Source: a virus
Reading direction: 5' to 3' (one strand)
Virus record (IMG/VR): IMGVR_UViG_3300031873_000019
Location: 1-34,837 of that record
DNA: 34,837 nucleotides
Positions 8,659-28,427 of this stretch are shown here, piece after piece (positions within the stretch are counted from its first letter, which is position 1; every line of letters starts with the position of its first letter). The translations under genes were made by a program, and so were the position numbers. Under the pieces are notes generated by a model. That model had not been told where the DNA came from. It was given only the letters and a program-made list of their open reading frames with translations, and did no database searches.

Positions 8659-8981
8659 TGTCCTCCGTCGCCTCATCGAAACTGGAGCCTTTCGTCCGGC
8701 ACGGGACGGACGACAAGGACACGGCGAAGCTCCAGGACCGCATCGAACGCATCGTTCAGCAGGTCCAGAACGTGCCGTTTCTGAAGGGAATCCTTCTCGA
8801 GGAAGTGACCCTCGTCAACTCTGTGGCCAATCGGGTCACGCACCTACTCGGGAGGACTCCCGTCGGATGCTGGCTCGTCAAAGGCACAGCCGGGTACCAG
8901 GCGACCATGACGGCCGCGGACGAGAAGAAGATGACCATCTCCTGCGGCGCGGCCCAGACCGCGACCTTGTGGGTATTTTGA
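8658..8981 (+). CDS. Small tail-assembly protein of unknown function
   Basis: The 107-residue protein starts at ATG 8658 within TGATG shared with the adaptor stop, and ends on TGATG shared with the next gene. The N-terminal half is a charged amphipathic helix (DDKDTAKLQDRIERIVQQ). The second half has VNSVANRVTHLLGRTPVGCW, a pattern of N.V.H.LGR.P.GW seen in many small phage proteins beside tail genes, ending in a short beta tail. Tight coupling on both sides supports a role in neck or tail assembly. Confidence 0.75.
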   Translation: MSSVASSKLEPFVRHGTDDKDTAKLQDRIERIVQQVQNVPFLKGILLEEVTLVNSVANRVTHLLGRTPVGCWLVKGTAGYQATMTAADEKKMTISCGAAQTATLWVF

Positions 8982-11900
8982 TGGCTCCTCTTCAGTGGCA
9001 GACGATCGACTTCAAGTTCGACCGGGGGCTCGACCAGAAGACCTCTCCGGAGCACACCCCTATCGGACGCCTTCCGATGTTGCAAAACGGCGAATTCTCA
9101 AAGCTCGGAACGCTCTCCAAAAGAGCCGGCAGTACGGTCTTTGGAAACACTCCCGAGCTCGCGACGACCTCGTACAAGAAAGGCGTCTCTCTCTTCTGCC
9201 GAAACAACGAGGAGCTCCTCCGCGTCATGCAGCGACAGCAGTCCTCGACTCTCGCGCGGGACGCGCAACGAGACTGGACCCTCGAAAGCTACAGCACGGC
9301 GCTTGCGAAATGGCGAGACGTCGGAAAGCTCACTCCACTTGAGATCTCGGTCGTAAGGGCCAAGGAGGCGGCGCCCATTGCGCGGCCAGACATGGCTATC
9401 ATCGGGAACTACGCTTGCGTCGCGTGGATCGGCCACTACGCGACCCCATTCTCGAATCCTGGGATCTGGTACCGCATCATCGATATCACGACCGGGGCCG
9501 TCATCGGCGAGGCGTATATCGCCGGCACATTTCATGCTGTATCAGTCTTGCCGATTGGGACTTCGTTTTGGATCTGGACTATTAACAACGCAACCCATGC
9601 TCCACAAGGGCTCCGGATCAATACCGCGAATCTTCCGACACTACCGACCAGCTGGACGACAGTCCTTACCGCCGGATCCGCATCGGAATACTGGGACGTG
9701 TGCAAGTATTCTAGCGACGGGACAGACAAGACGTTTCTCGCTTACGATCTCGGGACTGCAAATATCGGCCTTAGCAGCATCAACGAGGCGGGTACTGTAT
9801 CGACATGGTCTCCTTTCGCGACATCTCCACAGCAGGTGTTCGGGGTTGAGTGCCTCGTTGATTACAACACCGTGAACACACGGCTTGCGGTATTCTACTC
9901 CAAGGCAGAAAGCAGCATTGCCTATCTTCGCACCTTCTCGACGGCCGGAGTGGCAGTCCTAGGAGAGACCGCGATGCATGACGGAGGCGGGTCGGCTCCC
10001 GTCCGAATCACGCTCGCGAGCGAGCCGAGTGTGAGCAGCGCTTCGCTTCGTTTCTTCATTGAATACTACGATGCAAGTGCAAGCGGAAGCGGTAACCTCA
10101 TCTATTCTGATACGATGACTTTTGCGGGCGTGGTGTCAGGAGCGAACTACTGGACTCTCTACAACACGAACCTCGCTTCCCGCGCCTTCTCTCCGGATCC
10201 GACCTATGGGCTCGCCCACGTCCTCGTCGAAAAGAGCTCGGAGACACAGCCGACGTTCTTCCTTGTGAAGACATGGAGCAACGGAACCAACAGGCACGTC
10301 GCGTGCGTAGCTCGCCTCTTCGCGGGCCGCGCTTCGACTCACTACTATACGGCCTTGACGGACTCTGAATTCATACTTCCTCACGTGCTTGTCGGAACGA
10401 ATACCGCCTTCCATCTCGCGCTCTCATTCAAGGAGAGCGCGATCTACGGCGCCTCCAACTACGTCACCTTTGAATCCATCGCATGGGTCACCCTCCAGTG
10501 GCCGAAGCTACCATCGGTCGTCGAAGGGCATTACGGTATCGGATGCCTGGACCGCGCAAACACGGACAGGGGCGGGCTCGCCATTGCGACGGGAGGCCTC
10601 CTTGGGGAATACGACAAAACCCTCTTTCGAGAGATAGGGTTCCATCTCGGACCGGACGCCGCGGACATCACGCTCACCGCGAGTGTGACCGGAGGCCTCC
10701 TCTCGAACGGCACCCATTATTACGCCGTGCTGTACGAGTGGACCGACAACCTCGGCCATAAGCAGTATTCCACTCCGGCGTATGTGTCCAAGCTGATTAC
10801 GGGCGGCGGAGCCGTTCAATCGATCGCGATCGTCGTCGGCACCCTCGGCCTCGGAGAATACAATAAGCTCGTCAATACGCGTGTGCTCATCTATCGCAAG
10901 ATGAGTGACGGCCTCTATCACCAGATTAACGTCCTCTCTGGAGAATGGACCATCAATAGCCTCGCCGCGGCGACGGTCACGTACACGGACGACCAGAGCG
11001 CGGACTACCTCATCGGTCCCACCATGCCCTTCGACGCCGGCGTGATAGAGCCCGTCTCCCCTCCCGCGTGCTCCATCATGTGCCTCGCCATGGGTCGCCT
11101 GTGGGCGGTCCCGTCCGACGACCCGATGACGCTCTGGTTTTCAAAGCAAAAGGCAGACGGCGTCGGGTATCAGTTTAGCGACTCCCTCGTCATCCGCCTC
11201 CCGGACGGAGGACCCATCACCGCGCTCGCGCCGCTCGAGGACAAGCTCATCGTCTTCAAGGCGAGCTCCATCTATGTCATCGGAGGCAACGGCCCGAACG
11301 ATCTCGGGACCGGCTCATGGTGGAGCGAGCCTCGGCTCGTCTCGTCGAATGTCGGAAGCCCCTATCGTGGCTCCGTGGCTCCGTGCCCGCAGGGGATAGC
11401 GTTCAAGGCCGTCACTGGATACTATATGTTGACCCAGAGCCTCGGTCTCCAGGACATCGGAGTAGTGATAGACGACGACCGGAATCTCGTAGTGCAAAAG
11501 ACGATTATCGTTCCGAATAAGACACAAATCCGATTTCAGATTGCATACACGGGCGGTACCGGAAAGATGCTGGTTTATGACTGGGTGGCTGGCCAGTGGT
11601 CCGAGTGGACAGGTATGCGTCTTTTCGATGCCGTAATCTTCGGGAACAACGTATACTCATGCGCGAGAGAAGACGGCTCCATCGTGTACGAGAATCCATA
11701 TTCCTATATAGACACATGGGCTGGCGTGAAATACGGCATCACAATGCTCATCGAGACGGGCCCGCTCCGAATCGCGGGGCATGGAGGAATTCAGAGAGTG
11801 AAGTGGATCGAGATCCTCGGGTCGTATCACGACAAGCATCTCTTGCAGATATATTACTATATTGATGATGAGGACGACCAGAGAGAGATGCCGATGTTTT

Positions 11901-12112
11901 ATGTCAATGACGATATCGGGGATCAACCATATCGAATTCGATTCAAGCCGAGAATGCAAAAAAACACGGCGGTCCGCTTGCGTATCAGGGAGTGGATCTA
12001 TGACGACTCGCAATCGGCAACTTGCACCGCTGGATTCAGCCTGACGGGCATTCGCATGATCGCGGCGGCGAAAACACCAAGCCCGAAGATCGGGGCAAGC
12101 AGAACGATCTAA
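8981..12112 (+). CDS. Large tail nozzle/hub protein
   Basis: The 1043-residue protein starts at ATG 8981 (TGATG overlap with the stop of the previous gene). The N-terminus (WQTIDFKFDRGLDQKTSP) and the late segment with RLWAVPSDDPMTLWFS, LIVFKASSIYVIGG and a following VGSPYRGSV resemble nozzle proteins of short-tailed phages (P22 gp10, T7 gp12 type), in which such repeats form a beta-propeller tube. The central 130-620 region is Ser/Thr/Tyr-rich and somewhat richer in A+T than the flanks (about 9500-10160), as in a region that has been exchanged. It would form the tip of the short tail below the adaptor ring. Its length is greater than the classical P22 gp10. Confidence 0.72.
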   Translation: MAPLQWQTIDFKFDRGLDQKTSPEHTPIGRLPMLQNGEFSKLGTLSKRAGSTVFGNTPELATTSYKKGVSLFCRNNEELLRVMQRQQSSTLARDAQRDWTLESYSTALAKWRDVGKLTPLEISVVRAKEAAPIARPDMAIIGNYACVAWIGHYATPFSNPGIWYRIIDITTGAVIGEAYIAGTFHAVSVLPIGTSFWIWTINNATHAPQGLRINTANLPTLPTSWTTVLTAGSASEYWDVCKYSSDGTDKTFLAYDLGTANIGLSSINEAGTVSTWSPFATSPQQVFGVECLVDYNTVNTRLAVFYSKAESSIAYLRTFSTAGVAVLGETAMHDGGGSAPVRITLASEPSVSSASLRFFIEYYDASASGSGNLIYSDTMTFAGVVSGANYWTLYNTNLASRAFSPDPTYGLAHVLVEKSSETQPTFFLVKTWSNGTNRHVACVARLFAGRASTHYYTALTDSEFILPHVLVGTNTAFHLALSFKESAIYGASNYVTFESIAWVTLQWPKLPSVVEGHYGIGCLDRANTDRGGLAIATGGLLGEYDKTLFREIGFHLGPDAADITLTASVTGGLLSNGTHYYAVLYEWTDNLGHKQYSTPAYVSKLITGGGAVQSIAIVVGTLGLGEYNKLVNTRVLIYRKMSDGLYHQINVLSGEWTINSLAAATVTYTDDQSADYLIGPTMPFDAGVIEPVSPPACSIMCLAMGRLWAVPSDDPMTLWFSKQKADGVGYQFSDSLVIRLPDGGPITALAPLEDKLIVFKASSIYVIGGNGPNDLGTGSWWSEPRLVSSNVGSPYRGSVAPCPQGIAFKAVTGYYMLTQSLGLQDIGVVIDDDRNLVVQKTIIVPNKTQIRFQIAYTGGTGKMLVYDWVAGQWSEWTGMRLFDAVIFGNNVYSCAREDGSIVYENPYSYIDTWAGVKYGITMLIETGPLRIAGHGGIQRVKWIEILGSYHDKHLLQIYYYIDDEDDQREMPMFYVNDDIGDQPYRIRFKPRMQKNTAVRLRIREWIYDDSQSATCTAGFSLTGIRMIAAAKTPSPKIGASRTI

Positions 12113-12839: not shown

Positions 12840-14705
12840 ATGGCTCAATGGACGAATCCATATCCCTCGACCGGCCCGAATTTCAAACGGTGGCAACAGG
12901 CGCAGAGCAAGCAAAGCCTCTTCGGCACTCCAGACGCTCCAGAGACGGCCGTACCACCCCTCCCCTTGGGCGTGGACGCGGACAAGGCTCCGCCCCCGCA
13001 GACGGTGGCCTCGCTCGACCTCTCCCCGGAGGAGCAAGCGGCCGTCCTGAAAGCGAGAGAGCTCGCGGCTCAGCAGGCGGACGCATTTCAGCGGCTCAAT
13101 GCTGGCAAGGAGACATTGCCGGGAGGTCAAGTCTCCATCGGCGGGATGGTGGACCCAACCCTGGGAATCCAGGACCCTGTCCAACGGGCCGCAATGCAAA
13201 TGGGTCCTGGCCGATCTCTTCGCCCGGCGCCGGACATGTCCGGGGTCTCCGAGGAGGAGCGGTCACTCATCCTCCGGAAGAGACAGCAGGCCCTCGGGGG
13301 AGGGCAAGGGAGGGTAGATCCCTCCACGCTCACGGGCGTTCCCCAGCAGGGCATGACGGGCGGAGCCGGGGGTTTCGGGCTCACGCCGTATCCGACGACG
13401 GAGGGGCTCCGGAAAATTGGCCAGCAGGTCGATGACCTCACGGCCAAGTACGCCTCGGGAGTCGCCAAGAGCCAGGAGCTCCTCGGGGTGGCTCAGGCCG
13501 CGCAGCTCGAGGCCCAGGCGAAGGCCTCCGGCATTGGCCAGGCCATGGGTGCGGCCCAGGCCGCGGCGCTCAAGCAGCAGCACGAAGAGATGCTCGCCTA
13601 CGATGCCCAGCAGAAGCAGAGGGAGAGCCAGCGACAGGAGTGGGTGCGCTCGAAGTACGACGCCATCAATGCAGCCGGGCAGGAGTTCGACGAGGCCTCG
13701 CGGAGCTATAACCCGGTCCGCTTTTGGGCCAAGGCGGACGGGAGTTCCGACTACGGGAAGCGCATCATGGGCGCCATTATTATCGGCCTCGGGGAGTACG
13801 CGGCGGCGAAGACCGGGGGCCCAAACAGGGCGCTCTCCATTATCGACGACGCGGTGAACAGGGACCTCGAGGCCCAGAAGATGCGTATCCAGGCGACCGG
13901 AGAGAAGGCCCGAATGGCAGACACGGCCTACGCGAACGCGCTCCGGCAGACGGGGAGCGAGCGCGCGGCCGTGGAGGCGGACCGCGTAAAGAAGCTCGAT
14001 GGGCTCCAGCGGTACCTAGAGACGATTCGGGCGAACTACGCGGCTCCCCAGGAAGCGGCTCGCTTCGAGGCCTTCTCGGCCGGCCTCACGGCCCAGAAGG
14101 CGGAGGCTCAGCAAAGGCTTGCCGGAGAGCTCCATAGCGCCTCTTTCGGGGCAGTCCAGGCCAAGGCGGAAAACGAAAAAGCCATCTTTTCCGGAGGTAT
14201 GCAAAGGGCCGGAGCGATGAATCAGGCGGCCATGATGCGGGCCCAGGCCGCGGGCGCCGGAGCCGCACGGGAGCACCCGGACCTCCAGGCTATCCCTGGC
14301 ACGATGCCCACGGAGAAGGACTGGGAGGCGGCCAAAGAGCAGGACGCGAAGCTGAACCCCGCGCTATCGACCATTCGAGATCTTATCGATTGGAGAGACC
14401 AGAACTTTTCCCTTGAGAAATCGGCCGTCAAGAAAGACAAGACGGCTCAAATGCTCGCGAATCAGGCGCGCCTCGCGATGGGAAATCTCGTCGGCATCAA
14501 GGGCCGGAGCTTCATGGCACTCATCGACACGCTGGGAATCCCCGCCGACCCAGAGGAATGGAACGTCATCGGACAGCCGATGATCGAGAAGCTCCGCACT
14601 CTCGTCAAATCCATCGAGAAACAGCACGCGGGATTCCTGAAGGGGCATCTTATCATGCCCCGTTCGACGTCCCAGGCGGTCCAGCAGTACGGAGAAGCGA
14701 GGTGA
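12840..14705 (+). CDS. Ejection protein, long helical
   Basis: The 621-residue protein starts at ATG 12840 with CGAGGAGG upstream. After a Pro-rich N-terminus it is nearly all Ala/Gln/Glu/Arg helix (residues about 200-480, for example LEAQAKASGIGQAMGAAQ and ALKQQHEEM), with one hydrophobic segment IMGAIIIGLGEYAAAK (about 309-324). It lies second of three in the ejection cassette. Such proteins are packed in the head and form a conduit across the cell envelope during DNA entry. The C-terminal 130 residues are more globular (LIDWRDQNFSLEKSAVKK). The assignment is by composition and position. Confidence 0.68.
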   Translation: MAQWTNPYPSTGPNFKRWQQAQSKQSLFGTPDAPETAVPPLPLGVDADKAPPPQTVASLDLSPEEQAAVLKARELAAQQADAFQRLNAGKETLPGGQVSIGGMVDPTLGIQDPVQRAAMQMGPGRSLRPAPDMSGVSEEERSLILRKRQQALGGGQGRVDPSTLTGVPQQGMTGGAGGFGLTPYPTTEGLRKIGQQVDDLTAKYASGVAKSQELLGVAQAAQLEAQAKASGIGQAMGAAQAAALKQQHEEMLAYDAQQKQRESQRQEWVRSKYDAINAAGQEFDEASRSYNPVRFWAKADGSSDYGKRIMGAIIIGLGEYAAAKTGGPNRALSIIDDAVNRDLEAQKMRIQATGEKARMADTAYANALRQTGSERAAVEADRVKKLDGLQRYLETIRANYAAPQEAARFEAFSAGLTAQKAEAQQRLAGELHSASFGAVQAKAENEKAIFSGGMQRAGAMNQAAMMRAQAAGAGAAREHPDLQAIPGTMPTEKDWEAAKEQDAKLNPALSTIRDLIDWRDQNFSLEKSAVKKDKTAQMLANQARLAMGNLVGIKGRSFMALIDTLGIPADPEEWNVIGQPMIEKLRTLVKSIEKQHAGFLKGHLIMPRSTSQAVQQYGEAR

Positions 14706-14708
14706 CCG

Positions 14709-17690
14709 GTGGTCCTCTATGACCGCGACGGCAATCCCATAGATGTCCCGGACGCCGAGGTGCCGAAGGCGCTGCTCCAGGGAGGCCTCGCGCTCAAGAA
14801 AACCGACCTCGTTCCGGTCCTGGACCCTTCCGGCAAGGCGACGACCATCGGGGGCGAGGACGCGCACAGGCTTCTCCGAGACCCGAGCTCCGGCTGGTCC
14901 CTCGAGACCGCGGCCGCACGCGAGCATCGGCACACCGTCGAGAAGTACGGAGCCACCTTCGGCCAGGAGGCCCTCGCGGGCCTCGCCGGGGCGGGTAGGC
15001 TCGCGACCTTCGGGCTCTCAGATGTCGCCCTCACCGGGAGCGGGCTCGTCGCACCAGAGACCCTCCGAGGCCTTCAGGAGGCGAATCCCTCCGCGACGAA
15101 GGCCGGGGAGTTTCTCGGCCTCGGAGCCTCTCTCCTCGGAGGCCCCGAGGGGCTCGTCGGCAGGGCCGCCGGGAAAGGTATCGCCGGCGAGGTCCTTCGG
15201 GGCGCGACCTCCCTTCCTCGGCTCGCGAGCGAGGTGAACCTCGGCACGGAAGCGCTTGCGCTCCGAGCTCTCGGGGGTACTGCCGGCAGGGGTATCGTCG
15301 GGTCCTCGGTCCGGAGAGCCGCGGCCATGGGCGCCGGGAGCGCTCTCGAGGGGCTCGCCTACGGGGCCGGGCAAATCATCTCCGAGGAAGCGCTCGGAGA
15401 CCACGACCTGACAGCGGAGCAAATCGTCGACCACCTCGGGGCCTCCGCGCTCCTCGGTGGAGGTCTTGGAGCAGGCCTCGGCGCCGGAGCCGAGCTCCTC
15501 AAGGGTGTCGGACGCATGAGTGGAGCGGGACTCGTAAAGCTCTGGGAGCGGGCCTCGGGGGCGACCGCGCATCCGCGCCTGGCCTCGAAAATCGAGGAGA
15601 CCTTCGAGATCACTCCGAAGGGGGACATGACGGTAAGCCTCGGAGGCCGGGCCATGCCGGAAGCCGCGGAGGAGGCGCTCGGGCCCCGTCGAGCAAACCT
15701 CGGAGAGCGCATCCATGACGAGATCGTCTCCCTCCAGGCGGCGTCGACCGGAGGAGACAAGGCCGCGCTCAAGAGGCTCACCGCTCTCGGGGAGGAGGGT
15801 AGGGCCGCTCGAGCGAAGGCCGTCTCCGGAGAGGACGTGCGAGAGTCCGTGGCCCGTCGCATGGCGGAAGTGGATGACGAGATGGACGGGCTCATCCGCA
15901 CCATCACGGACGAGGACCGGGGCGTTCAGAAGGTCAAAAACGTCGATAAGATCTGGGACGACTCTATCCCCGTTGCTCCGGAAGAGATCGCGACAGCACA
16001 GCTCGACATCATGGACACGACCCTGTCCGATGTCCGAAGGATGCGCGCCGAGGCGAAGGCGGACGGAAGCTGGGGCTTCAAGAACCAACTCCGGGACATG
16101 GAGGGCCTCATCCTCCGCCAGAGGCAGAAGATCGTCGATACGGTCGAGCATGGGGCGCAAACGACGAACAAGGGCGCCGAGCTATTCGAGCATGTGGACC
16201 GCTTCAAAAAAGAGCTAGCGAAGCTTCGGAATAGAATGCGAGTCGGGAAGGACGCTCCCTCTCCGGACCGGGACACGCGCGCGTGGATGGAAGCTACCTA
16301 CGAGAAATTCCGCGAGCACCTCGAGGACCCGAGCCTCTACAATCGCGTGGGGATCGAACAAAAGGCCTACAACACGGATTATCACCGGTACCTCGGAAAC
16401 GAAGAGTTCAACGCGAACTTCAGGGTGCCGGTCGACAAGGCCGGCTGGCAGACAATCTGGAAAGCGGATCCGGGGAAGTTCAGAGGTGCCGTCGACCGCA
16501 TCGGAAAGACCTCCGGGGACCTCGAGATCAACTACCTCAAGGAGCGGTATGGCCGTGCCAATAAGCTCCTCGACCAGCTCACGAAGTCCTTCGACCTCGG
16601 AGAGGTCGCCGAGGGCCAGGTAGCGCGGGCGAAGCAGCTCGCGAAGGAATTCAAGGGGCTCATCGACAAGGCCGACGACACCATCCGGCTCCAGAACCAG
16701 TACGAGCGCATCATCAAGACCGGCTCGGCCGTGACCTCCATGGCTGGCGAGGTCGGGGGATTCATGTTGGGAGGCATTCCCGGAGCGATGATTGGAAGCC
16801 TCTTCGGAACCATCATGAACCCGGGGCTCGCAATCAAACGGCTCGCGACCATCGAGCGGGTGACGAATTCGCAGCACTTCGGAGCCATGAAGCGCATCGC
16901 GGAATTCTTCGGCCGCGCGACGAAGGGAGCGGCGAAGGGTGCCGCTGGCGCGGCCCGAAAGGCCATCGTCCCATCCTACGTAGGCATCCTCTCCCGCGTC
17001 GCCTACGGAGACGGGAAGCCGGACAAGAAGGACGTCCGGAGGAAGGCCTTCCACCGGCGCATCGAGGAGCTCCGGGACATCGTAACGGACCCGGAGACGA
17101 CGGCCATGAGGATCGCCACGAAGACGGAGGGCGTAGCCTCCGCGGCCCCGAAGCTCGCGGCCAAGGTACAGGCGACCGCCGTTCGAGCGGCGGACTTCCT
17201 CTGGGGGAAGGCCCCGAAGCCGCCCGCGGAGACGCTCTACAAAACAAGCTGGGAGCCCTCGGACCAGGAGCTCGCTTCTTTCGAGCGGTACTCCGCGGCT
17301 ATCGAGCATCCGACGTCCATCCTCCAGGACCTCCACGCGGGGGCCGTGAGTAGCGAGGCCGTCGAGGCCGTCCGTGCCGTCTATCCGCGCGTGTACCAGG
17401 AGATGGTCTCCGAGCTCGGGAGCCACCTCTCGGAGCTCCAGGAGACGCTCTCCTACGCGGACCGCTTCAATCTCTCCGTCCTCCTCGACCTACCGATTGA
17501 CGCGACGGCGGACCCGGGGCATCTCGCGAGTCTCCAGGCCGCATGGGCCGGGACTGGAAAGGATGGAGCTCCGCCCATGGGAGGACCGCCGGAGGCCTCC
17601 AGGAGACCGAGCAAGCTCCGGACCGGAAGCCTCTCCCGGGAGAAGACGACGGAAAACAGCATGACCAAAGCAGACAAGCTCATTGCCTGA
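14709..17690 (+). CDS. Large ejection protein with membrane-active segments
   Basis: The 993-residue protein starts at GTG 14709 with GAGGTGA upstream. The N-terminal 280 residues are Ala/Gly-rich and hydrophobic with several amphipathic or membrane-type stretches (GQEALAGLAGAGRLATFGLS, then an Ala/Leu/Gly-rich block near 234-264). Residues about 300-650 are charged helices, followed by a hydrophobic stretch MAGEVGGFMLGGIPGAMIG (about 678-696) with a second Gly-rich part, and a charged tail. This is the third and largest member of the ejection cassette and could insert in the host inner membrane. No lysozyme motif is recognisable. Confidence 0.68.
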   Translation: MVLYDRDGNPIDVPDAEVPKALLQGGLALKKTDLVPVLDPSGKATTIGGEDAHRLLRDPSSGWSLETAAAREHRHTVEKYGATFGQEALAGLAGAGRLATFGLSDVALTGSGLVAPETLRGLQEANPSATKAGEFLGLGASLLGGPEGLVGRAAGKGIAGEVLRGATSLPRLASEVNLGTEALALRALGGTAGRGIVGSSVRRAAAMGAGSALEGLAYGAGQIISEEALGDHDLTAEQIVDHLGASALLGGGLGAGLGAGAELLKGVGRMSGAGLVKLWERASGATAHPRLASKIEETFEITPKGDMTVSLGGRAMPEAAEEALGPRRANLGERIHDEIVSLQAASTGGDKAALKRLTALGEEGRAARAKAVSGEDVRESVARRMAEVDDEMDGLIRTITDEDRGVQKVKNVDKIWDDSIPVAPEEIATAQLDIMDTTLSDVRRMRAEAKADGSWGFKNQLRDMEGLILRQRQKIVDTVEHGAQTTNKGAELFEHVDRFKKELAKLRNRMRVGKDAPSPDRDTRAWMEATYEKFREHLEDPSLYNRVGIEQKAYNTDYHRYLGNEEFNANFRVPVDKAGWQTIWKADPGKFRGAVDRIGKTSGDLEINYLKERYGRANKLLDQLTKSFDLGEVAEGQVARAKQLAKEFKGLIDKADDTIRLQNQYERIIKTGSAVTSMAGEVGGFMLGGIPGAMIGSLFGTIMNPGLAIKRLATIERVTNSQHFGAMKRIAEFFGRATKGAAKGAAGAARKAIVPSYVGILSRVAYGDGKPDKKDVRRKAFHRRIEELRDIVTDPETTAMRIATKTEGVASAAPKLAAKVQATAVRAADFLWGKAPKPPAETLYKTSWEPSDQELASFERYSAAIEHPTSILQDLHAGAVSSEAVEAVRAVYPRVYQEMVSELGSHLSELQETLSYADRFNLSVLLDLPIDATADPGHLASLQAAWAGTGKDGAPPMGGPPEASRRPSKLRTGSLSREKTTENSMTKADKLIA

Positions 17691-17703: not shown

Positions 17704-18087
17704 ATGTGGACGAAGCCAAAGACCCTGACCTCCCTCGCCATGCTCATCGCCATCGCAATCATCGGCGTCTACGCCTTAGCGGGACCCGCGCCCTACGAGA
17801 AGACCGTCGACGATACCGTCGCTCAATGCGTTGCCATCACCGCAAGCTCGGTCCAGTACACCATTCCGACCGCCGTTCGCGGGCAGTGGTTCTATCTCGT
17901 CGCCGTCGACAACACGGCCTACCTGCTTGGGGGCTCGAATCCTACGGCGACAACGGCGGTGGGAGGATTCGCAATTTCGGTACCGGATTCAGCGCCCATC
18001 ATGATGCGGCTCTCGAGCGCGAAGATCGCCGTCATCGGAAAATCGGCCGCAGGAACGATCTGCTTCATTCCTCAAAAAGTGACGTGA
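17704..18087 (+). CDS. Small beta-rich protein with an N-terminal membrane anchor
   Basis: The 127-residue protein starts at ATG 17704 behind AGGAGA. The N-terminus has KPK, then a 19-residue hydrophobic stretch (LAMLIAIAIIGVYALAGPA) that reads as a signal anchor or a signal peptide. The remaining 95 residues are beta-rich, with two Cys (QCVAI and TICFI) in the first and last strands that could be paired. The C-terminal SSAKIAVIGKSAAGTICF segment resembles small beta-sandwich domains found in virion proteins. A membrane anchor on such a domain is unexpected. It opens a run of three genes with export signals. Confidence 0.8.
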   Translation: MWTKPKTLTSLAMLIAIAIIGVYALAGPAPYEKTVDDTVAQCVAITASSVQYTIPTAVRGQWFYLVAVDNTAYLLGGSNPTATTAVGGFAISVPDSAPIMMRLSSAKIAVIGKSAAGTICFIPQKVT

Positions 18088-18101
18088 GACAGGAGACCCC
18101 C

Positions 18102-20054
18102 ATGCGACGCTCCATCCTTGCGATCATCGCTCTCCTCGCATCTCCGCTTGCGTGGGGGCAGACGGGCATTCCTCCCTTTTCCTCGGGTGGCCTTGCGAGC
18201 ACATCCTATCCCCTCAACTCCTCCGGGAACCTCCTCTCGACCTACCTCGGAACGCCCACGTTCTACTGGAGTTTCAACCAGACCGTGGGCGCGACGGTGA
18301 CGGCCAACTCCGGGCAAACCATGACCCGGGTTGGTTCTCCAATCAGGGTATCGGACTGGACCTGGCCTTCGGGGCTTGGGGGAACTAATGGTTATGGCTA
18401 CAAGAATGATTATTGGACAAGTACGATTAGACCGCCTACTGGAAGCTTCAGTGTTTTTGCCGTCGTTACGCCGTCGGCTCTCTCAAGTGGGCAGCGTTTT
18501 TTTACATGGATGGCCGCTGGAGACACTAGGGGAGGTTTTCTCAACATCAACGCACCTAGTGAATTTACGGTCGCAGTTTATCGCGACGGTACGTCAACAC
18601 CATCAACTATTGTCGGGATCGCCAATGCTGCAGGTATAGGTAGAACGTCAATCATTGGAGCGTCTTACGATGCTTCAGGAGGAGATGGGCATTGCATCTT
18701 GACTCTATTTATTGATTCTTTGACCGCTGCTTCTACCAACACTGCGGTCGGGCCAATGTTCCAGGGTGCGGGCAATATTACAATCGGCGCCTCCGGCAAT
18801 GGCGGAAGCCAATACTATGGAATTATTCACGACGTGGCTTATTGGTCCGGTCCTGTTATGACGGCCACACAGTTTGCATTCATGCGCGATACCTACCGTG
18901 GTCGCATGAGCAACAAGGGAACGGCCCCGATCATCACATGGAGCGCACCTGGAAGTCAGCAATTGGCTCCACCAAGTTCTGGTATCGAACCGTTCATGAT
19001 CGATGCGCCGGCGAATGGCTCCATGGTGGGCGCCGTCTACACGGGCTCTGGCGGTCTATCTAAAGGACGTGCAGTTACGAACCTGCTATACAGGTCGAGA
19101 ATATGCGCGACACCGGATGGCAGTAATCACCCCACGGGATGGACCGTGGTCGAGACAGTAGGTGGCGGAGGTACATCAGATGTCTCATGCAACACCACAA
19201 CTTCAGTCGACGGAGCGTCTTCCGTAAAGATTGCCATGACTGTCACCTCTATAGGTACGGTCACGTCGAATTGCATTACGTCAGGGATTGCAGCGGATCT
19301 GTACGCATCGATATGGGCAAAAGAAACTAGTGGTACGCCAGGCGTTACTCTCAGTATTATAGAGTATGATGCATCGGATTGTACCACAGCACTTGCTTCA
19401 AATACGCTTGCAACTGTTAGTGGTTCGACGTGGACTCGCTATGGGGCAAAGTTGGCAGCCGCCACCTGGAATGCATCTACGAGCTCTTGGAAGCTACAAA
19501 TTGCGAACGCTGCAGCGGGGACTGTATATTTTGACGTTCCGATGGCACATGTTGGGTCCGCCGATCTCTCCATTTCGTGTACATCCGACGCGGACGCGGT
19601 GACGGCATGCACGGCGAACTACGGCACGATCACGAATCCGTTGACCACGGGAAATTGGACGGTCAAGGGAGTACAGCGCTTGACGATGGCCGTGCCCGGA
19701 GTGGATCGTTACGTTTTCTCCGTTCCCGGGACCTCGGGGAGCAACAACGCAATCGGCCTGTACTTCGCAGCATCAACGAACGACAAAATCTTCTACGTGT
19801 ACGACTCAGCGGGAGCGCTCAGGACAAGCACCATCTCCGATGCCATCACCGCAAACACGGACTACGCATGGACCGTGTGGCATCGGATGACGGGGGAGAT
19901 AGGGTTCTCGTTTGGGGAATGGACAGGGACCGTCGCCGGAGCGGGGACGGGCATCCTTGCGACCCCATCAACAACGTTCAACCTCGGACACGCGACCGGA
20001 GACGGGGCCGGATGGCTCCGAGATCTTAAATTCTACAAGCGGGTGAAGCCATGA
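18102..20054 (+). CDS. Secreted three-domain lectin-like protein (putative adhesin or receptor-binding protein)
   Basis: The 650-residue protein starts at ATG 18102 (AGGAGA upstream). It begins with a classical Sec signal peptide: MRRS, hydrophobic 5-13, and a likely cut after AWG (residue 19). Then come three jelly-roll parts: a LamG/concanavalin-like domain (about 52-265, with LFIDSLTAAS and GIIHDVAYWSG), a carbohydrate-binding-module-like domain (about 325-485, with SSVKIAM and a late TVYFDVPMAHV), and a second LamG-like domain (about 515-648, ending WLRDLKFYKR). Cys pairs occur at 335/363 and 493/503. Bases about 18370-19570 are clearly richer in A+T than the flanks, a sign of exchange. 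It sits where a tail fibre is expected, but fibres are normally not exported. Alternatives: a true virion adhesin with a hydrophobic N-terminus, or a cell-surface protein. Confidence 0.75.
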   Translation: MRRSILAIIALLASPLAWGQTGIPPFSSGGLASTSYPLNSSGNLLSTYLGTPTFYWSFNQTVGATVTANSGQTMTRVGSPIRVSDWTWPSGLGGTNGYGYKNDYWTSTIRPPTGSFSVFAVVTPSALSSGQRFFTWMAAGDTRGGFLNINAPSEFTVAVYRDGTSTPSTIVGIANAAGIGRTSIIGASYDASGGDGHCILTLFIDSLTAASTNTAVGPMFQGAGNITIGASGNGGSQYYGIIHDVAYWSGPVMTATQFAFMRDTYRGRMSNKGTAPIITWSAPGSQQLAPPSSGIEPFMIDAPANGSMVGAVYTGSGGLSKGRAVTNLLYRSRICATPDGSNHPTGWTVVETVGGGGTSDVSCNTTTSVDGASSVKIAMTVTSIGTVTSNCITSGIAADLYASIWAKETSGTPGVTLSIIEYDASDCTTALASNTLATVSGSTWTRYGAKLAAATWNASTSSWKLQIANAAAGTVYFDVPMAHVGSADLSISCTSDADAVTACTANYGTITNPLTTGNWTVKGVQRLTMAVPGVDRYVFSVPGTSGSNNAIGLYFAASTNDKIFYVYDSAGALRTSTISDAITANTDYAWTVWHRMTGEIGFSFGEWTGTVAGAGTGILATPSTTFNLGHATGDGAGWLRDLKFYKRVKP

Positions 20055-20620
20055 CGCGAAACCATATCGCATTGACAGCATTCATTTTTCTCATCGCGGC
20101 ATGCGTCGGGACGTGCTTTCTCGCATCGTCGAGAGCTGGAGATGGGGCGGCGAGCTCGGCCGCGGCACCGACGTTAAGGATCGCTCGCTTGCCCGCGGGC
20201 AAGTGCTCCGAGGAGAGATGCCCCAAGGGGAGCATCGCGGGGGACGGGTGGTGCGCGTGCCTCACCGCGTCGAAGGCATCCGAGCCGGTGGCGGAAGAAG
20301 TGAAGAGCACAAGCGAGCTCGCCGCCAAGGACACGCGGAAGATGATGCTCTGCGGCCCGGACAAGGACGGGCAAGGGGGTGGCGTGAGCTATCCCCTCGC
20401 GTCGGACCCCTTGCCCATTGGATGCTACGAGATACTGCCAAAGGTACTCTTGCCCGGGGTGCAAACCAACTCCCTCCCGACGGGCATCGAGGCTCAGCTC
20501 GAGGTGGAGTGCTATCCATGCCGGGTGTCTCCCGGGTCATGGGGGCCATGCCCGCATTGCATCCTATGGCCCGGAGGATGCGCGAGGGCTTGCCCGGTGG
20601 TGGATGGAGGAATGCCGTAG
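20051..20620 (+). CDS. Cys-rich exported protein with a lipobox
   Basis: The 189-residue protein overlaps the lectin-like gene by ATGA. The N-terminus is hydrophobic (ALTAFIFLIAAC) with IAAC fitting the lipobox at Cys18, so it is likely a lipoprotein, or else a signal anchor. The mature part has thirteen further Cys residues, many in close pairs (CxC at 68-70, CxxC at 154-157 and 167-170), which suggests disulfides outside the cytoplasm. No family is recognised. Translational coupling to the lectin-like gene suggests a joint function at the envelope. Confidence 0.72.
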   Translation: MTRNHIALTAFIFLIAACVGTCFLASSRAGDGAASSAAAPTLRIARLPAGKCSEERCPKGSIAGDGWCACLTASKASEPVAEEVKSTSELAAKDTRKMMLCGPDKDGQGGGVSYPLASDPLPIGCYEILPKVLLPGVQTNSLPTGIEAQLEVECYPCRVSPGSWGPCPHCILWPGGCARACPVVDGGMP

Positions 20621-21081
20621 TGACCCCGTCCCAGGTCGGCCTATCGCTCTCGTCCTCCCCGGAGCTTTTGTACTTTGCGCTCGGGATCTCGTTGCTTGTC
20701 ATCGTGCTCCTTGCGGGCCTGACCTGGAGGCTCATGGGAGAGCGCATCAAGGGACGAGAGCGAGAGATGGACCTACTTGACCGACGCCTCCAGACGGGCA
20801 CCGACACCATGCAAGCGCTCTCGCGGAGCGTGACGATTCTTCAGGGCGAAAGCGCTAAATGGATAGCATCCATGGTGTCGCAGGACGTCTTCGTTCGCTA
20901 TATTTCAGACAACCAGAAGGAGCATCGAGAGCTCGAACGCATGCACTCCGACCTGGTGTCCGAGGTCCGCTCGATGGGCGCCAAGCTCGACGGTCGCCTA
21001 TCCACCATTACGACGCTGCTGTCAAAGCTGATCGTGGTAAAAGATCCCGACGAGGAGAAATCGACCAATGGTCAAGCCTAA
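20620..21081 (+). CDS. Membrane/coiled-coil protein ahead of the endolysin
   Basis: The 153-residue protein starts at GTG 20620 (shared G with the TAG stop of the previous gene; GGAGG about ten bases upstream). It has one membrane segment (LLYFALGISLLVIVLLAGLTW), then a basic turn (RLMGERIKGRERE) and a long coiled-coil. Positive charges after the segment favour a cytoplasmic C-terminus. It overlaps the endolysin gene by 14 bases. It could be a lysis accessory or holin-associated protein; an i-spanin would need the opposite topology, so that name is not given. Confidence 0.72.
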   Translation: MTPSQVGLSLSSSPELLYFALGISLLVIVLLAGLTWRLMGERIKGREREMDLLDRRLQTGTDTMQALSRSVTILQGESAKWIASMVSQDVFVRYISDNQKEHRELERMHSDLVSEVRSMGAKLDGRLSTITTLLSKLIVVKDPDEEKSTNGQA

Positions 21082-21577
21082 AAAAGAGATCGCTTCTTTT
21101 TCGATTTGCACCGCGCGCCCAATGCATCCCATTGTGAATGGCCTTCCAGAGCTCCTGTCCAGGATAGAGTCGCGGAAGGGAGCCCACTTCGGCCCGCGGC
21201 GTAATCCAATCACCGGCCTCGAGGAGTTACATGACGGCATCGATCTGCCCTGCGGGACCGGGACTAAGATTCGTGCTCCGTGGGATGGAGAGGTGGACGA
21301 GTGTTTCGAGTCTCCCAAAGGAGGTCTCTCGCTCATCATCTATCATGAAGAGGAGCACCTGAAGTCTGGCTATGCTCATCTCAGAGCTACCATAGGCTCG
21401 GTGGACAAGGGAGACCTAGTGAGGCGCGGAGAGCCGATCGCGGTCTCTGGCTCCACGGGCAAATCCACGGGACCGCATTTACACTTCACGATACGCAGAG
21501 AGACGGCCATCGAAAAGGACTGGGTCAAGGTGGACCCGCTACCGTTTTTGGAGTCCGCGGGGCCGGACAGGAAATAG
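21068..21577 (+). CDS. M23-family peptidase endolysin
   Basis: The 169-residue protein contains the full M23 (LytM-like) zinc site: H55 and D59 in LHDGIDLPC, H104 in GYAHL, and H137/H139 in GPHLHF. Members of this family cut peptide cross-links of peptidoglycan. No signal peptide is present, so it needs a holin-type pore to reach the wall. It lies in a lysis cassette beside membrane proteins and starts at ATG 21068 inside the previous gene. It could also act as a virion-associated enzyme, but its place between lysis-type genes favours endolysin. Confidence 0.88.
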   Translation: MVKPKKEIASFSICTARPMHPIVNGLPELLSRIESRKGAHFGPRRNPITGLEELHDGIDLPCGTGTKIRAPWDGEVDECFESPKGGLSLIIYHEEEHLKSGYAHLRATIGSVDKGDLVRRGEPIAVSGSTGKSTGPHLHFTIRRETAIEKDWVKVDPLPFLESAGPDRK

Positions 21578-21957: not shown

Positions 21958-22260
21958 ATGCTCCAAGATGTCTGGCAGTCCATTGTCGCTCACATCACAA
22001 ACTGGGTCGTCGGCGCAGGCCTCGGGATAGCCTCCCTCTGGGGTTTCGTCACATGGTGGAGGCTCTCCAGGCGGAGGAGGACGAGGGACCAGGAGCTCGA
22101 CACTCGACTCTCCGCCGTCTCGGACATCTCCCGGGACGAGGCCGGTCGGGCCCAGACCGCCATGGACCAGGAGATCGAGGAGCGGGTCCAGAAGATCCGC
22201 GCCGAAGCGGATTCCGCTCGGACTGAAATTCGGGCACGCTTCGGAGGCAAAAGCAAATGA
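21958..22260 (+). CDS. Single-pass membrane protein with basic coiled-coil tail
   Basis: The 100-residue protein starts at ATG 21958, seven bases after GGAGG; an upstream ATG at 21907 lacks such a site. A membrane segment (WVVGAGLGIASLWGFVTWW, about 17-35) is followed by four Arg and a charged helical tail with heptads. The Arg cluster argues for a cytoplasmic tail. It is the fourth lysis-cassette member and ends on ATGA shared with the next gene. It may be an antiholin or a second holin-like factor. The gap before it (21859-21957) holds no other supported gene. Confidence 0.65.
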   Translation: MLQDVWQSIVAHITNWVVGAGLGIASLWGFVTWWRLSRRRRTRDQELDTRLSAVSDISRDEAGRAQTAMDQEIEERVQKIRAEADSARTEIRARFGGKSK

Positions 22261-22670
22261 AAGCGCTTGTTTTATGCGCCCTCGCGTGCGCGAGTCTCTG
22301 GGAGGGCCAAGGATGCCTTCGGACGGCCAAGCCCATACCTGGACCACCCCCTGACCGCTCGGAGCGATTCTGGGGGCCTTTGATGGCTCGATGCGCGCCG
22401 TCCGCTCAGGACGCCACCGTGGTCACCTGCCCCATGGAGGACTTCCGTTCCCTTCTCCTCCGTACAGTGGACCTCTGGGAGGAGTGCAATGTCTCCGGGG
22501 CGGAGGCCGACCATCACGCCCAGGAGGCCGAGCTCGCCAAGCGCCTCTGCGAGTCTTACTCCCGAGAGCTCCAGGCCCAGTCAGAGAGGTACCAGGCCCA
22601 GCGGTGGTGGTGGGCCGGGGCTGGCCTCGTCGCCGGCGCCCTCTGTGGGGCACTCCTCATCTCCCGGTAG
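22257..22670 (+). CDS. Candidate unimolecular spanin
   Basis: The 137-residue protein has a short hydrophobic N-terminal export signal (MKALVLCALACASLW) with Cys7, Cys11 and Cys20 as possible lipid sites, a Pro-rich linker (PIPGPPP at 26-32), a helical middle (about 60-115) and a C-terminal membrane segment (WWWAGAGLVAGALCGALLI, 117-135). A lipoprotein end plus an inner-membrane anchor is the layout of u-spanins such as phage T1 gp11 (about the same length), which join the outer and inner membranes in lysis. The lipobox is imperfect (ALAC), which is the weak point. It is coupled by ATGA to the previous gene and closes the late operon. Confidence 0.55.
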   Translation: MKALVLCALACASLWEGQGCLRTAKPIPGPPPDRSERFWGPLMARCAPSAQDATVVTCPMEDFRSLLLRTVDLWEECNVSGAEADHHAQEAELAKRLCESYSRELQAQSERYQAQRWWWAGAGLVAGALCGALLISR

Positions 22671-22693: not shown

Positions 22694-22722
22694 TTGACAT
22701 GTAATACGATATGTATTATGAT
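22694..22722 (+). promoter_or_regulatory. Near-consensus sigma-70 promoter of the early region
   Basis: TTGACA (22694-22699), a 17-base spacer and TATGAT (22717-22722) make one of the best promoters in the window. The start point would be near 22729. It lies after the end of the lysis operon and drives the genes at 22762 and 22989. The spacer contains the palindrome described separately, so the promoter looks repressible. Confidence 0.8.
22702..22718. promoter_or_regulatory. Palindromic operator inside the promoter spacer
   Basis: TAATAC (22702-22707), GATAT, and GTATTA (22713-22718) form a perfect 6-bp inverted repeat with a 5-base centre, lying between the -35 and -10 and overlapping the first two bases of the -10. 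A dimeric repressor bound here would block RNA polymerase. The protein that would bind is not identified. Confidence 0.6.
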
Positions 22723-26001: not shown

Positions 26002-26034
26002 ATGTTCCACCTAACGTATGGGCCGGAGACTCGG

Positions 26035-27063
26035 ATGAACACTCGCTCTTCCGACACGCTGAAGGTGTCTCTGACGATAGGGAAGATAAGAGCAATGGCA
26101 TCACAAGGATGTAGTCCATCGGAGATACTTGTGTGGCTAATCCTGCTTGCTCATGCCGATTCGGAGTGGAGATGCTTCCCGTCCGTCTCACTGGTCGGAG
26201 CATACACGGGGCTCGCCCAGAGGCATGTCATCAGAGTCCTTGGGCACCTCGAGGAGATGGGAATCGTAAGGCGAGAAATGAGATCGGGATGCTCCACCAT
26301 CTATTACATCACGCATCCACCAACCCCTGACATCTTGTCAGGGGTACCCCGGGCCAAAAAAGCGCCACCAACCCCTGACATCTTGTCAGGGGTACCCCGG
26401 GCCAAAAAAGCGCCACCAACCCCTGACATCTTGTCAGGGGTACCCCTGACATCTTGTCATGGGGTCAAAAGTCCCACCCCTGACAAGATGTCACCCGAAC
26501 TTAAAGACTTAAGATCTTACTTAAAGAGAGACACTGATCTTGTTAAGATATGCAGCAAAGATTCTCTCTCTTTTTCGCCTTCGGCTGGACCCCTAAAACC
26601 ACCTCCCGCGACCCGTCCGATGAACGGGGAAGCCGAGGCCATCCTGGAGACCCGGAAGACCTACGCCGCGGCGTGGGGCCACCCGGTCGAGGAGCGCCTC
26701 CCTGGAGACATCCTGCTCCGGCGCGTGCTCGAGGCGATCCGGGCCGACGGCCTGGAGGGAGTCAATCGTGGGCTCCTAGGCCATCACCGAATCGCGAGCC
26801 GGGATGGATCTCAGCACGGGAGGGGATACCATCACGCATTCCCTCCCCTCCGCATGGATGACGGCATCGACTATCGGCACCTGGACTTCGACAGGTGGTC
26901 GGAATTCAAGGCCGCCGGGCCAAAGCCGGAGCCCGTCCTTCCGACGCAGGCGCAGATAGAGCCGGTGAGCGAAGAGGTAACAAAAATGGGCCTCGAAATG
27001 ATGCGGAAGGAAATATTTCACAGGGGGACTAACGGGGACAATCGGAAAGGGGACCTGAAATGA
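26035..27063 (+). CDS. Replication initiator with internal iterons
   Basis: The 342-residue protein starts at ATG 26035 with GGAGA upstream; an ATG at 26002 lacks a ribosome site. Residues about 25-92 form a winged helix-turn-helix (SPSEILVWLILLAH, then CFPSVSLVGAYTGLAQRHVI, then LEEMGIVRREMR), as in phage O-like initiators. Residues 95-150 are the translation of an iteron array (repeat unit PPTPDILSGVPRAKKA), then an A+T-rich coded segment, and a C-terminal domain (about 190-330) that could contact helicase or primase. An origin inside the initiator gene is the lambda O layout. No helicase or loader gene is visible nearby, so host helicase is probably recruited. It overlaps the next gene by ATGA. 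Confidence 0.78.
   Translation: MNTRSSDTLKVSLTIGKIRAMASQGCSPSEILVWLILLAHADSEWRCFPSVSLVGAYTGLAQRHVIRVLGHLEEMGIVRREMRSGCSTIYYITHPPTPDILSGVPRAKKAPPTPDILSGVPRAKKAPPTPDILSGVPLTSCHGVKSPTPDKMSPELKDLRSYLKRDTDLVKICSKDSLSFSPSAGPLKPPPATRPMNGEAEAILETRKTYAAAWGHPVEERLPGDILLRRVLEAIRADGLEGVNRGLLGHHRIASRDGSQHGRGYHHAFPPLRMDDGIDYRHLDFDRWSEFKAAGPKPEPVLPTQAQIEPVSEEVTKMGLEMMRKEIFHRGTNGDNRKGDLK
26317..26493. repeat. Iteron array, putative replication origin
   Basis: Two full 48-bp units and most of a third (26317-26364, 26365-26412, 26413-26446) each contain a palindrome with arms CCCCTGACA and TGTCAGGGG around TCT (26324-26344, 26372-26392, 26420-26440). A fourth, imperfect copy begins at 26443 and a fifth lies inverted at 26477-26493. 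So five copies of TGACATCTTGTCA occur in 170 bases. The 48-bp period keeps the reading frame, so the array also encodes a 16-residue repeat. It is placed directly before an A+T-rich segment. Confidence 0.85.
26497..26580. other. A+T-rich candidate DNA-unwinding element
   Basis: Directly after the iterons the sequence turns A+T-rich, with two direct copies of CTTAAAGA (26500-26507 and 26519-26526) and ACTTAAGATCTTACTTAA between them. In lambda-type origins an A+T-rich stretch beside the iterons opens first. The segment stays in frame inside the initiator gene. Confidence 0.6.
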
Positions 27064-27242: not shown

Positions 27243-27525
27243 GGTTGCGATAGAGCTTGGGCTCTTGGATGAGCTCCGAAAGATCTTGGACGCCACGGAC
27301 GAAAGCGATAGCCTCGCCGGCGCCGATTCCCGGGGCCGAGGAGGAGGTTCAGAATGGCCCCTCGAAAAAAGGGATACAGGGTCGTCGGGCCCTACCGCCA
27401 TCATCGACGATGGCGAATCGAGCTTGTTGGACCGGATGGGAGACGAGCTCTGGAATCGTTTTCGACAGAGGGCGAGGCCCGTCTCGCTGCAAAAGCCGCA
27501 TGGCGAAAAGTCCCAGGAAGAGTAA
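27217..27525 (+). CDS. Small protein overlapping the integrase start
   Basis: ATG 27217 follows GGAGGAGG, and the first 40 codons give a plausible helical protein (AKRLVEVAIELGLLDELRK). The frame then runs 172 bases into the integrase gene, where its composition becomes less protein-like. The start is well supported by its ribosome site and by the 26-base overlap with the previous gene; the full 102-residue length is less certain. No function is recognised. Confidence 0.45.
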   Translation: MSIAKRLVEVAIELGLLDELRKILDATDESDSLAGADSRGRGGGSEWPLEKRDTGSSGPTAIIDDGESSLLDRMGDELWNRFRQRARPVSLQKPHGEKSQEE

Positions 27526-28427
27526 GCGTGGCGAGCGTGGTAGAAAAGTACGAGGAGCACTTGGTCGCGAAGGGCAACAAGGCGCGGGCGATCGCGGAGA
27601 CCATCCGCCGGGTGAGATCTTTTCACGCGGGGGACCTCGAGCGATCCATCGGGGACGTCCCCCATGGGACAATCTCTGACCGGTACAAGGCCATGAGCTC
27701 CGAGCTCGCCGCAGACACCCACCGGAATCGGCTTGCCGAGGTCAAGACGTTTTGGAGGTGGGTGGTCATGCGAGGATTAGCCACCAGAAGCCCTGCGGAG
27801 GCCGTGGAGCCGATCGGAAGGCGGAACAAGGGAAAGCCACAGCTCCGGCGGTCCGAGGCCCGTGAGCTCTTTCTGTGGGCCTCACAGGATGCGTCGGCAA
27901 ATCCCGAGGCGAGTCTCGCCGTGCTCATGGTCCTGACGCTCGGACTCCGCGCGTCCGAGCTACTGGAGAGGAGGGTGAGAGATGTAGATGTGGGGGAAGA
28001 CTCTGTCCTGCTATGGATTGACATGGGGAAGACTAGAGCGGCGGCCCGCGTGCTCGAGGTCCCGGAGCCGGCATTGAGCATGCTCCGCGACTGGATAGCC
28101 GATCGACCGGGGGAGCAATACGTCTTCGCAAGCAAAGACTCTCGGACTGGCCATCGGGACCTATCGTGGCTCCGCAAAGTGCTCCGCTCCCTTTGCGTGC
28201 GCGCGAAGGTCCCGGTGGTCTGTCCGCATGGGCTCCGTGGGACGAGGGCCACGCTCGCCGTCGAGGCGGGTCTCTCCGCGCACATCATCGCTCGCGAGCT
28301 CGGGCATGAGAGCTTCGTCACGACGCGGAAGCACTATCTCGCGGAGGGCGTCGAGGAGAAGGCCAGCACGAAGGCGTTCATGCGCGTCATCGAAGGAGGA
28401 CGGGAAAAAAGCGGTGGGGTATCGTGA
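27354..28427 (+). CDS. int: Tyrosine recombinase integrase
   Basis: The 357-residue protein starts at ATG 27354 behind GAGGAGG. It has an N-terminal arm-binding part (1-50), a core-binding helical domain (55-150) and a catalytic domain with the full set: R199 in TLGLRASELL, K226, H292 and R295 in CPHGLRGTRAT, H318 in ELGHES and the nucleophile Y328 in RKHYL. Such enzymes catalyse strand exchange between attP and attB. The attachment site lies directly after it, on the other strand of a tRNA-Ala remnant. No excisionase is recognised. Confidence 0.95.
   Translation: MAPRKKGYRVVGPYRHHRRWRIELVGPDGRRALESFSTEGEARLAAKAAWRKVPGRVSVASVVEKYEEHLVAKGNKARAIAETIRRVRSFHAGDLERSIGDVPHGTISDRYKAMSSELAADTHRNRLAEVKTFWRWVVMRGLATRSPAEAVEPIGRRNKGKPQLRRSEARELFLWASQDASANPEASLAVLMVLTLGLRASELLERRVRDVDVGEDSVLLWIDMGKTRAAARVLEVPEPALSMLRDWIADRPGEQYVFASKDSRTGHRDLSWLRKVLRSLCVRAKVPVVCPHGLRGTRATLAVEAGLSAHIIARELGHESFVTTRKHYLAEGVEEKASTKAFMRVIEGGREKSGGVS

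Follow-up and report, generated by a model that had tools for sequence, protein, structure and literature searches.

Predicted export signals on cysteine-rich proteins in the tail-fibre position of podovirus-like phage genomes

Tailed phages are generally regarded as completing their virions in the cytoplasm, ahead of lysis. The T7-type anchor fibres and spikes (Phage_T7_tail, phrog_1640 and relatives) are encoded after the ejection genes, are laid out as anchor, shaft and receptor-binding part, and are each made as one cytoplasmic polypeptide. The genomes described here share this place and this layout, but the receptor-binding part carries a predicted Sec signal and many cysteines, and is a separate gene in some genomes. 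The coat proteins of filamentous phages are virion proteins made as Sec substrates; those phages are unrelated and are assembled in the membrane by extrusion, whereas the present ones are tailed phages that lyse the cell. Proteins of the Lom/Cor/Llp type are phage-coded and exported to the host envelope, and some are encoded near tail genes; however, they are small outer-membrane proteins or lipoproteins, not fibre-like, and are at best comparable to gene C of this study.

PblB of streptococcal phages is a tail protein with a galactose-binding domain and, in its pneumococcal form, a predicted signal peptide (PMC4508584). It differs from the lectin-like gene B of this study in its Gram-positive host and in having been studied as a bacterial adhesin, the likeness being one by description (PMC4508584). 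The MAT fibres of Bdellovibrio are phage-fibre-like, carry a signal peptide, are exported in a Gram-negative cell and stand on the predator surface, but they are cellular genes, while the genes described here sit within phage late operons (PMC10769870). A search of the open literature, with subscription journals and preprints mostly outside its scope, turned up no description of a tailed phage whose tail fibres are exported by Sec, a weak indication that such fibres would be new.

The window, meaning the whole stretch of DNA analysed, is a 34.8-kb IMG/VR virus record. Its late region appeared podovirus-like, with terminase, portal and capsid genes followed by largely unassigned structural genes; the tail nozzle is placed at 8978-12112. 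The gene of a Cys-free ejection (internal virion) protein of 993 aa (14709..17690, + strand) was used as the anchor for finding relatives, and alignment showed its product to be homologous along its length with those of the relatives G001, G013, G005 and G020. On the same strand it was followed by gene A (17704..18087), encoding a small beta protein of 127 aa with an N-terminal export signal and two mature Cys; gene B (18102..20054), encoding a three-domain lectin-like protein of 650 aa with a Sec signal peptide and seven mature Cys; gene C (20051..20620), encoding a Cys-rich protein of 189 aa; and the lysis cassette. The cassette started with a membrane and coiled-coil protein that was weakly Rz-spanin-like (20617..21081, + strand; phrog_214, E 0.037), whose start codon is unsure, GTG at 20620 being likely, and continued with an M23 peptidase endolysin (21068..21577, + strand; PF01551, E 1.6e-21). 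The preliminary description had the three genes A, B and C in one run with overlaps; an overlap is present between B and C, which share the ATGA at 20051-20054, but not to A and B, which lie 14 nt apart. A promoter scan found no convincing promoter of its own for the A/B/C run, the sole site being at chance level and inside gene B, and the first strong promoter lay at 22694, past the lysis cassette. A protein of 137 aa encoded at 22257-22670, with an N-terminal export signal, many Cys, a proline stretch and a C-terminal membrane segment, is a candidate one-protein spanin. Further on, a HTH_36 protein (26002-27063) and a tyrosine integrase (27354-28424; PF00589, E 2e-18) suggest that the phage is temperate.

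Signal peptides were called by a home-made heuristic with a measured background, 16/2480 internal-Met pseudo-N-termini and 4/205 upstream structural proteins being flagged. Because this background is low, three export signals in a row are far from chance, and the earlier claim of three adjacent genes with export signals after the ejection gene held in both coordinates and signals. Gene B started with MRRSILAIIALLASPLAWG (18102..18158, + strand), followed by QTG: a clear, textbook Sec signal peptide with predicted n-h-c structure, a charge of +2, a 9-residue hydrophobicity of 3.37 and cleavage between AWG and Q, preceded by a good ribosome site. Export of the gene B product is nearly certain. 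The N-terminus of gene A (MWTKPKTLTSLAMLIAIAIIGVYALA, followed by GP) consisted of a 19-residue hydrophobic stretch and then an A-L-A site, so that the protein, earlier described as membrane-anchored, may instead be cleaved between ALA and GP. Gene C had a predicted lipobox, IAAC, near its N-terminus after a hydrophobic stretch (SPII pattern [LVI][ASTVI][GAS]C), and 12 mature Cys. A start-codon artefact as the source of the signals was ruled out, because ribosome sites and independent relatives agreed.

The lectin-like character of gene B was indicated by a match of residues 112-251 to Laminin_G_3 (PF13385), which at 21.9 bits lay below the Pfam cut-off of 27.6 in the window protein, while the homologue in L117 passed it with 48.4 bits. 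A LamG-type domain was also found in the homologue in L085. The two homologues (L085:10821, 33% identity; L117:12312, 23%) both carried a signal peptide and 11-14 mature Cys; L117 could be aligned to gene B over its full length and L085 up to the end of its contig, and Cys 391 and 427 of gene B were common to the window and L085. Predicted disulfides of gene B include 391-427 and 493-503. The three-domain organisation fits the sequence pattern, from which alone domains 2 and 3 were drawn, and alignment A4 agrees with it; the structure prediction contributed nothing to this claim, the AlphaFold model from a three-sequence input (pLDDT 32) being set aside. No relatives of gene B beyond these two were found by a single-protein scan, a phage tblastn or a search with the lectin alignment. 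The single MAG match gives an uncertain host assignment; when 379 genomes from its phylum were searched for a cellular copy of the lectin, one weak LamG fragment came up. L117 kept the gene order, with gene A and the lectin followed by an exported Cys-rich protein, a membrane protein with a coiled coil and an M23-like peptidase. The place of gene C was held in L117 by a protein with eight Cys and a signal peptide (14180-14686) and in G019 by a Cys-rich protein with a signal peptide; these are regarded as analogues by position.

Relatives were collected with the capsid protein (two contigs), a capsid alignment (48) and an ejection-protein alignment (42, further loci). The first relative found, G001, was collinear with the window through the ejection genes. 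Its next large gene encoded a 567-aa fibre with head-type repeats and a signal peptide (MRLLAFICTLLLSFNAQA, followed by Q), and the two genes after it also started with signal peptides. Among non-redundant proteins of at least 230 aa encoded after the ejection gene, with near-copies removed, a signal peptide was present in 14/59, against 4/205 upstream structural proteins (Fisher p = 3e-7), so that the earlier claim of export was both supported and extended to many relatives. In a survey of the first genes past the ejection gene, the large signal-bearing proteins in this fibre position came from the window and from L085, L091, L092, L095, L099, L100, L102 (= G001), L103 (= G013), L107, L117 and L121. 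Ordinary signal-less proteins occupied it in L086-L090, L093, L094, L098, L101, L104, L106, L109, L113, L115, L116, L118-L120, L122, G006 and G019. No signal-less protein of at least 230 aa was found in the fibre region of the window, L085, L091, L102/G001, L103/G013 or L117.

In the ejection-protein tree the window fell into a supported clade of four (99/92), all of them signal-bearing. Over the whole tree the signal label needed 3 to 6 changes, which implies several gains or losses of the trait. Gene B, L102, L103, L099, L100 and L121 showed the n-h-c structure typical of signal peptides, with A-x-A sites. In L099, L100 and L121 the sequence GLPPTT..G..D....T.F.FQ.P stood directly past the predicted cleavage site, while the rest of the protein diverged; this motif is a possible docking sequence. 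Searches for isolated phage relatives through the terminase, portal, capsid, nozzle, ejection protein and signal-bearing fibres returned only very distant terminases and capsids.

Cysteine content was coupled to the signals. Per 100 residues, the median Cys count of fibre-position proteins was 1.85 when signal-bearing and 0.44 when signal-less (Mann-Whitney p = 6e-6), and signal-bearing fibre proteins exceeded the upstream proteins of their own genome, whose median was 0, in 12/12 genomes (Wilcoxon p = 2e-4). Near-copies were removed, but the remaining related proteins were counted as independent, which makes the p-values optimistic; the trait did, however, change more than once. Where a genome had both kinds, the signal-bearing fibre-position proteins were the richer in Cys (5/5). 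Low values occurred among signal-bearing proteins in L091 (0.46 per 100) and L092 (0.58), and some proteins in L110, L108, G019 and L119 were Cys-rich although signal-less. Since the signal-bearing versions are enriched in Cys, the export signals look to be in use and not a dead ornament, the cysteines being what is expected of proteins that fold in an oxidising periplasm. Phage Milano has virion disulfides without a reported signal-peptide route (PMC10811340); Cys content alone is therefore insufficient, and the weight lies on its coupling to the signal. In a screen of Klebsiella phages (PMC13412088), dependence on DsbA was weak and ascribed to envelope effects, and it was not enlisted as support.

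Several genomes appeared to divide the fibre between two genes. In L092, L095, L099, L100, L107 and L121 the signal-bearing protein came after a signal-less one of 136-348 aa that was in most cases fibre-like, and L095 had a receptor-binding type domain, C1q. The clearest layout was that of L135, which is ct8d5349 (GenBank MW202898.1), a complete circular genome from a metagenome. Its first protein, here called the stub, had 305 aa and no Cys, and its first 127 residues matched phrog_1640, the anchor domain of T7-type fibres and spikes, with an E of 7e-37. The overlapping next gene encoded a 906-aa protein starting with the signal-bearing MFNKILIAIVFIITCLNA, with its own GGAG site and five mature Cys; it had a BclA_C-like domain (below cut-off) and 37% identity to the signal-bearing protein of L092. 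The pair looks like two halves of one fibre, of which the distal half would be exported. At L135:9134-9167 the caprin-2 domain protein is annotated to begin 33 bases ahead of the start that has a ribosome site, which masks the signal peptide; mis-annotated starts of this kind may conceal further cases.

The preliminary description named signal-less homologues acting as ordinary fibres as a finding that would speak against it. This is partly the case, with signal-less LamG-type proteins in the place of gene B in G019 (LamG by eye only) and G020, and with a mostly signal-less gene A family; the signal-bearing versions, however, are those enriched in Cys. In most relatives the first gene past the ejection gene belonged to a signal-less family of 111-127 aa, modelled as a jelly-roll-like beta sandwich (pLDDT 91) with a predicted fold resembling small phage proteins and minor tail protein domains. 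Gene A of L091 had a signal peptide and three Cys, yet was placed in this otherwise signal-less family by an HMM (E 4e-4) and by hhalign (E 1.4e-4). Gene A of the window shared 30% identity over 87 aa with the C-terminal part of the signal-bearing gene A of L085; its comparison with the signal-less family gave no sequence link (E 0.18), only that of L091 being linked.

Export signals, Cys enrichment, the post-ejection position, the exchange for signal-less fibre genes and the split fibres are all features read from the sequences. We consider it an even call that A and B, and possibly C, form the phage's equipment for adsorption, being synthesised as Sec substrates and joined to the virions when the cell lyses. 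Late in infection, these proteins would be secreted by Sec to the periplasm and cleaved. They would fold there, form disulfide bonds and be retained by the outer membrane. Once the envelope has been opened by endolysin and spanin, cytoplasmic virions with complete tails would meet the periplasmic fibres and acquire them in a final step of assembly, either directly on the tail or on a cytoplasmic fibre stub. Signal-less A proteins and adaptor proteins would be such stubs; in the window, where no stub was seen, docking by B or A would be direct. The gain would be receptor-binding domains stabilised by disulfides. We infer, at about even odds, that exported proteins become part of the virion at all. 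The broader proposal, that a whole podovirus-like lineage makes its tail fibres outside the cytoplasm, exporting them by Sec, holding them disulfide-bonded in the periplasm and docking them at lysis, in some phages on a cytoplasmic stub with only the anchor, is tentative and falls a little short of even.

Gene B would work like a fibre by its place and domains. Its slot lay after the ejection genes and before the lysis genes, an order that recurred in the relatives. It was not filed as a proven fibre, because an N-terminal virion-anchor domain was found in the same chain neither in gene B nor in the signal-bearing protein of L135, whose anchor domain is carried by the separate stub, and because presence in the virion is a matter of inference. 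It had earlier been proposed that the protein decorates the surface of the host instead of the virion, or else that it travels by a route not yet described; export stood, and of the two the undescribed route is preferred. Under the host-surface proposal, A, B and C would coat the envelope of the host or lysogen, as receptor masks, a superinfection block or an adhesin, and the virion would use another receptor-binding protein. The export signals are real, gene C would be a lipoprotein by its lipobox, and the tyrosine integrase means that a lysogen exists in principle. There are precedents in PblB, a phage tail protein acting as a galactose-binding adhesin (PMC4508584), and in the MAT proteins on the Bdellovibrio cell surface (PMC10769870); the head repeats in the fibre of G001, moreover, are similar to the prophage protein EibD. 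Against this, the signal-bearing proteins fill the slot of ordinary signal-less fibre genes, and in genomes with a split fibre they come after a short fibre-like protein that lacks a signal and, in ct8d5349, has an anchor domain. No Pfam surface-anchor domain was found in gene B or the G001 fibre, and their C-termini, judged by eye, were not barrel-like, unlike the beta-barrel anchor of type V outer-membrane adhesins (Eib/YadA). The A/B/C run lacks a convincing promoter of its own, and the window has no other fibre candidate, so that the phage would be fibreless. Integrases were not significantly associated with the signals among the long records (4/8 signal-bearing against 4/11 signal-less, p = 0.66; 5/9 with ct8d5349, which also carries one), and these small numbers do not favour lysogenic conversion as the only function. 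We therefore hold decoration of the host surface to be unlikely as the main reading.

A soluble lectin of lysis time is improbable. Such a non-virion protein would wait in the periplasm and, once set free at lysis, cover the receptor glycans of debris, sparing the progeny, which suits the lectin-like domains, the predicted periplasmic fate and the neighbouring lysis genes; but it would leave the virion without fibres, and it would account neither for what is seen in G001, L092 and L095, namely shafts of fibre type, head repeats and C1q-like tips, nor for the arrangement of stub plus distal part. Least probable is that the hydrophobic N-terminus stays uncleaved as a segment for insertion into a virion membrane or the tail: some N-termini in the fibre position are hydrophobic but atypical (L110) and that of gene A is long, but the n-h-c structure and A-x-A sites of the typical signals, the conserved residues that begin exactly at the predicted mature end, and the Cys enrichment, which speaks for passage through an oxidising compartment, all argue against it.

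Were assembly completed at lysis with exported fibres, tailed phages would have a two-compartment assembly route. If fibres are exported and oxidised first, host range would hinge on the Sec and Dsb functions of the host. Disulfide-stabilised receptor-binding folds that the cytoplasm disfavours would become possible on fibres, and progeny could take fibres from the lysate (phenotypic mixing). Signals on phage fibre genes are easily written off as annotation noise; here they track Cys content, which makes the export idea testable in any isolated phage of the group.

Three further loci were observed. L110 encoded in the fibre position (L110:9949-11730) a Cys-rich protein of 593 aa with 14 Cys, whose hydrophobic N-terminus was without positive charge. 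L114 had, upstream of or within the ejection-gene region and thus among virion genes, an 829-aa protein starting with MIKAILILVLLGSTAMS, an apparent signal peptide. In L127 (CAITLX010000885.1), a MAG called uncultured delta proteobacterium, an ejection-protein relative had no fibre gene after it and an integrase-like gene was present; it is possibly a degraded prophage or other element, and a possible clue to the host.
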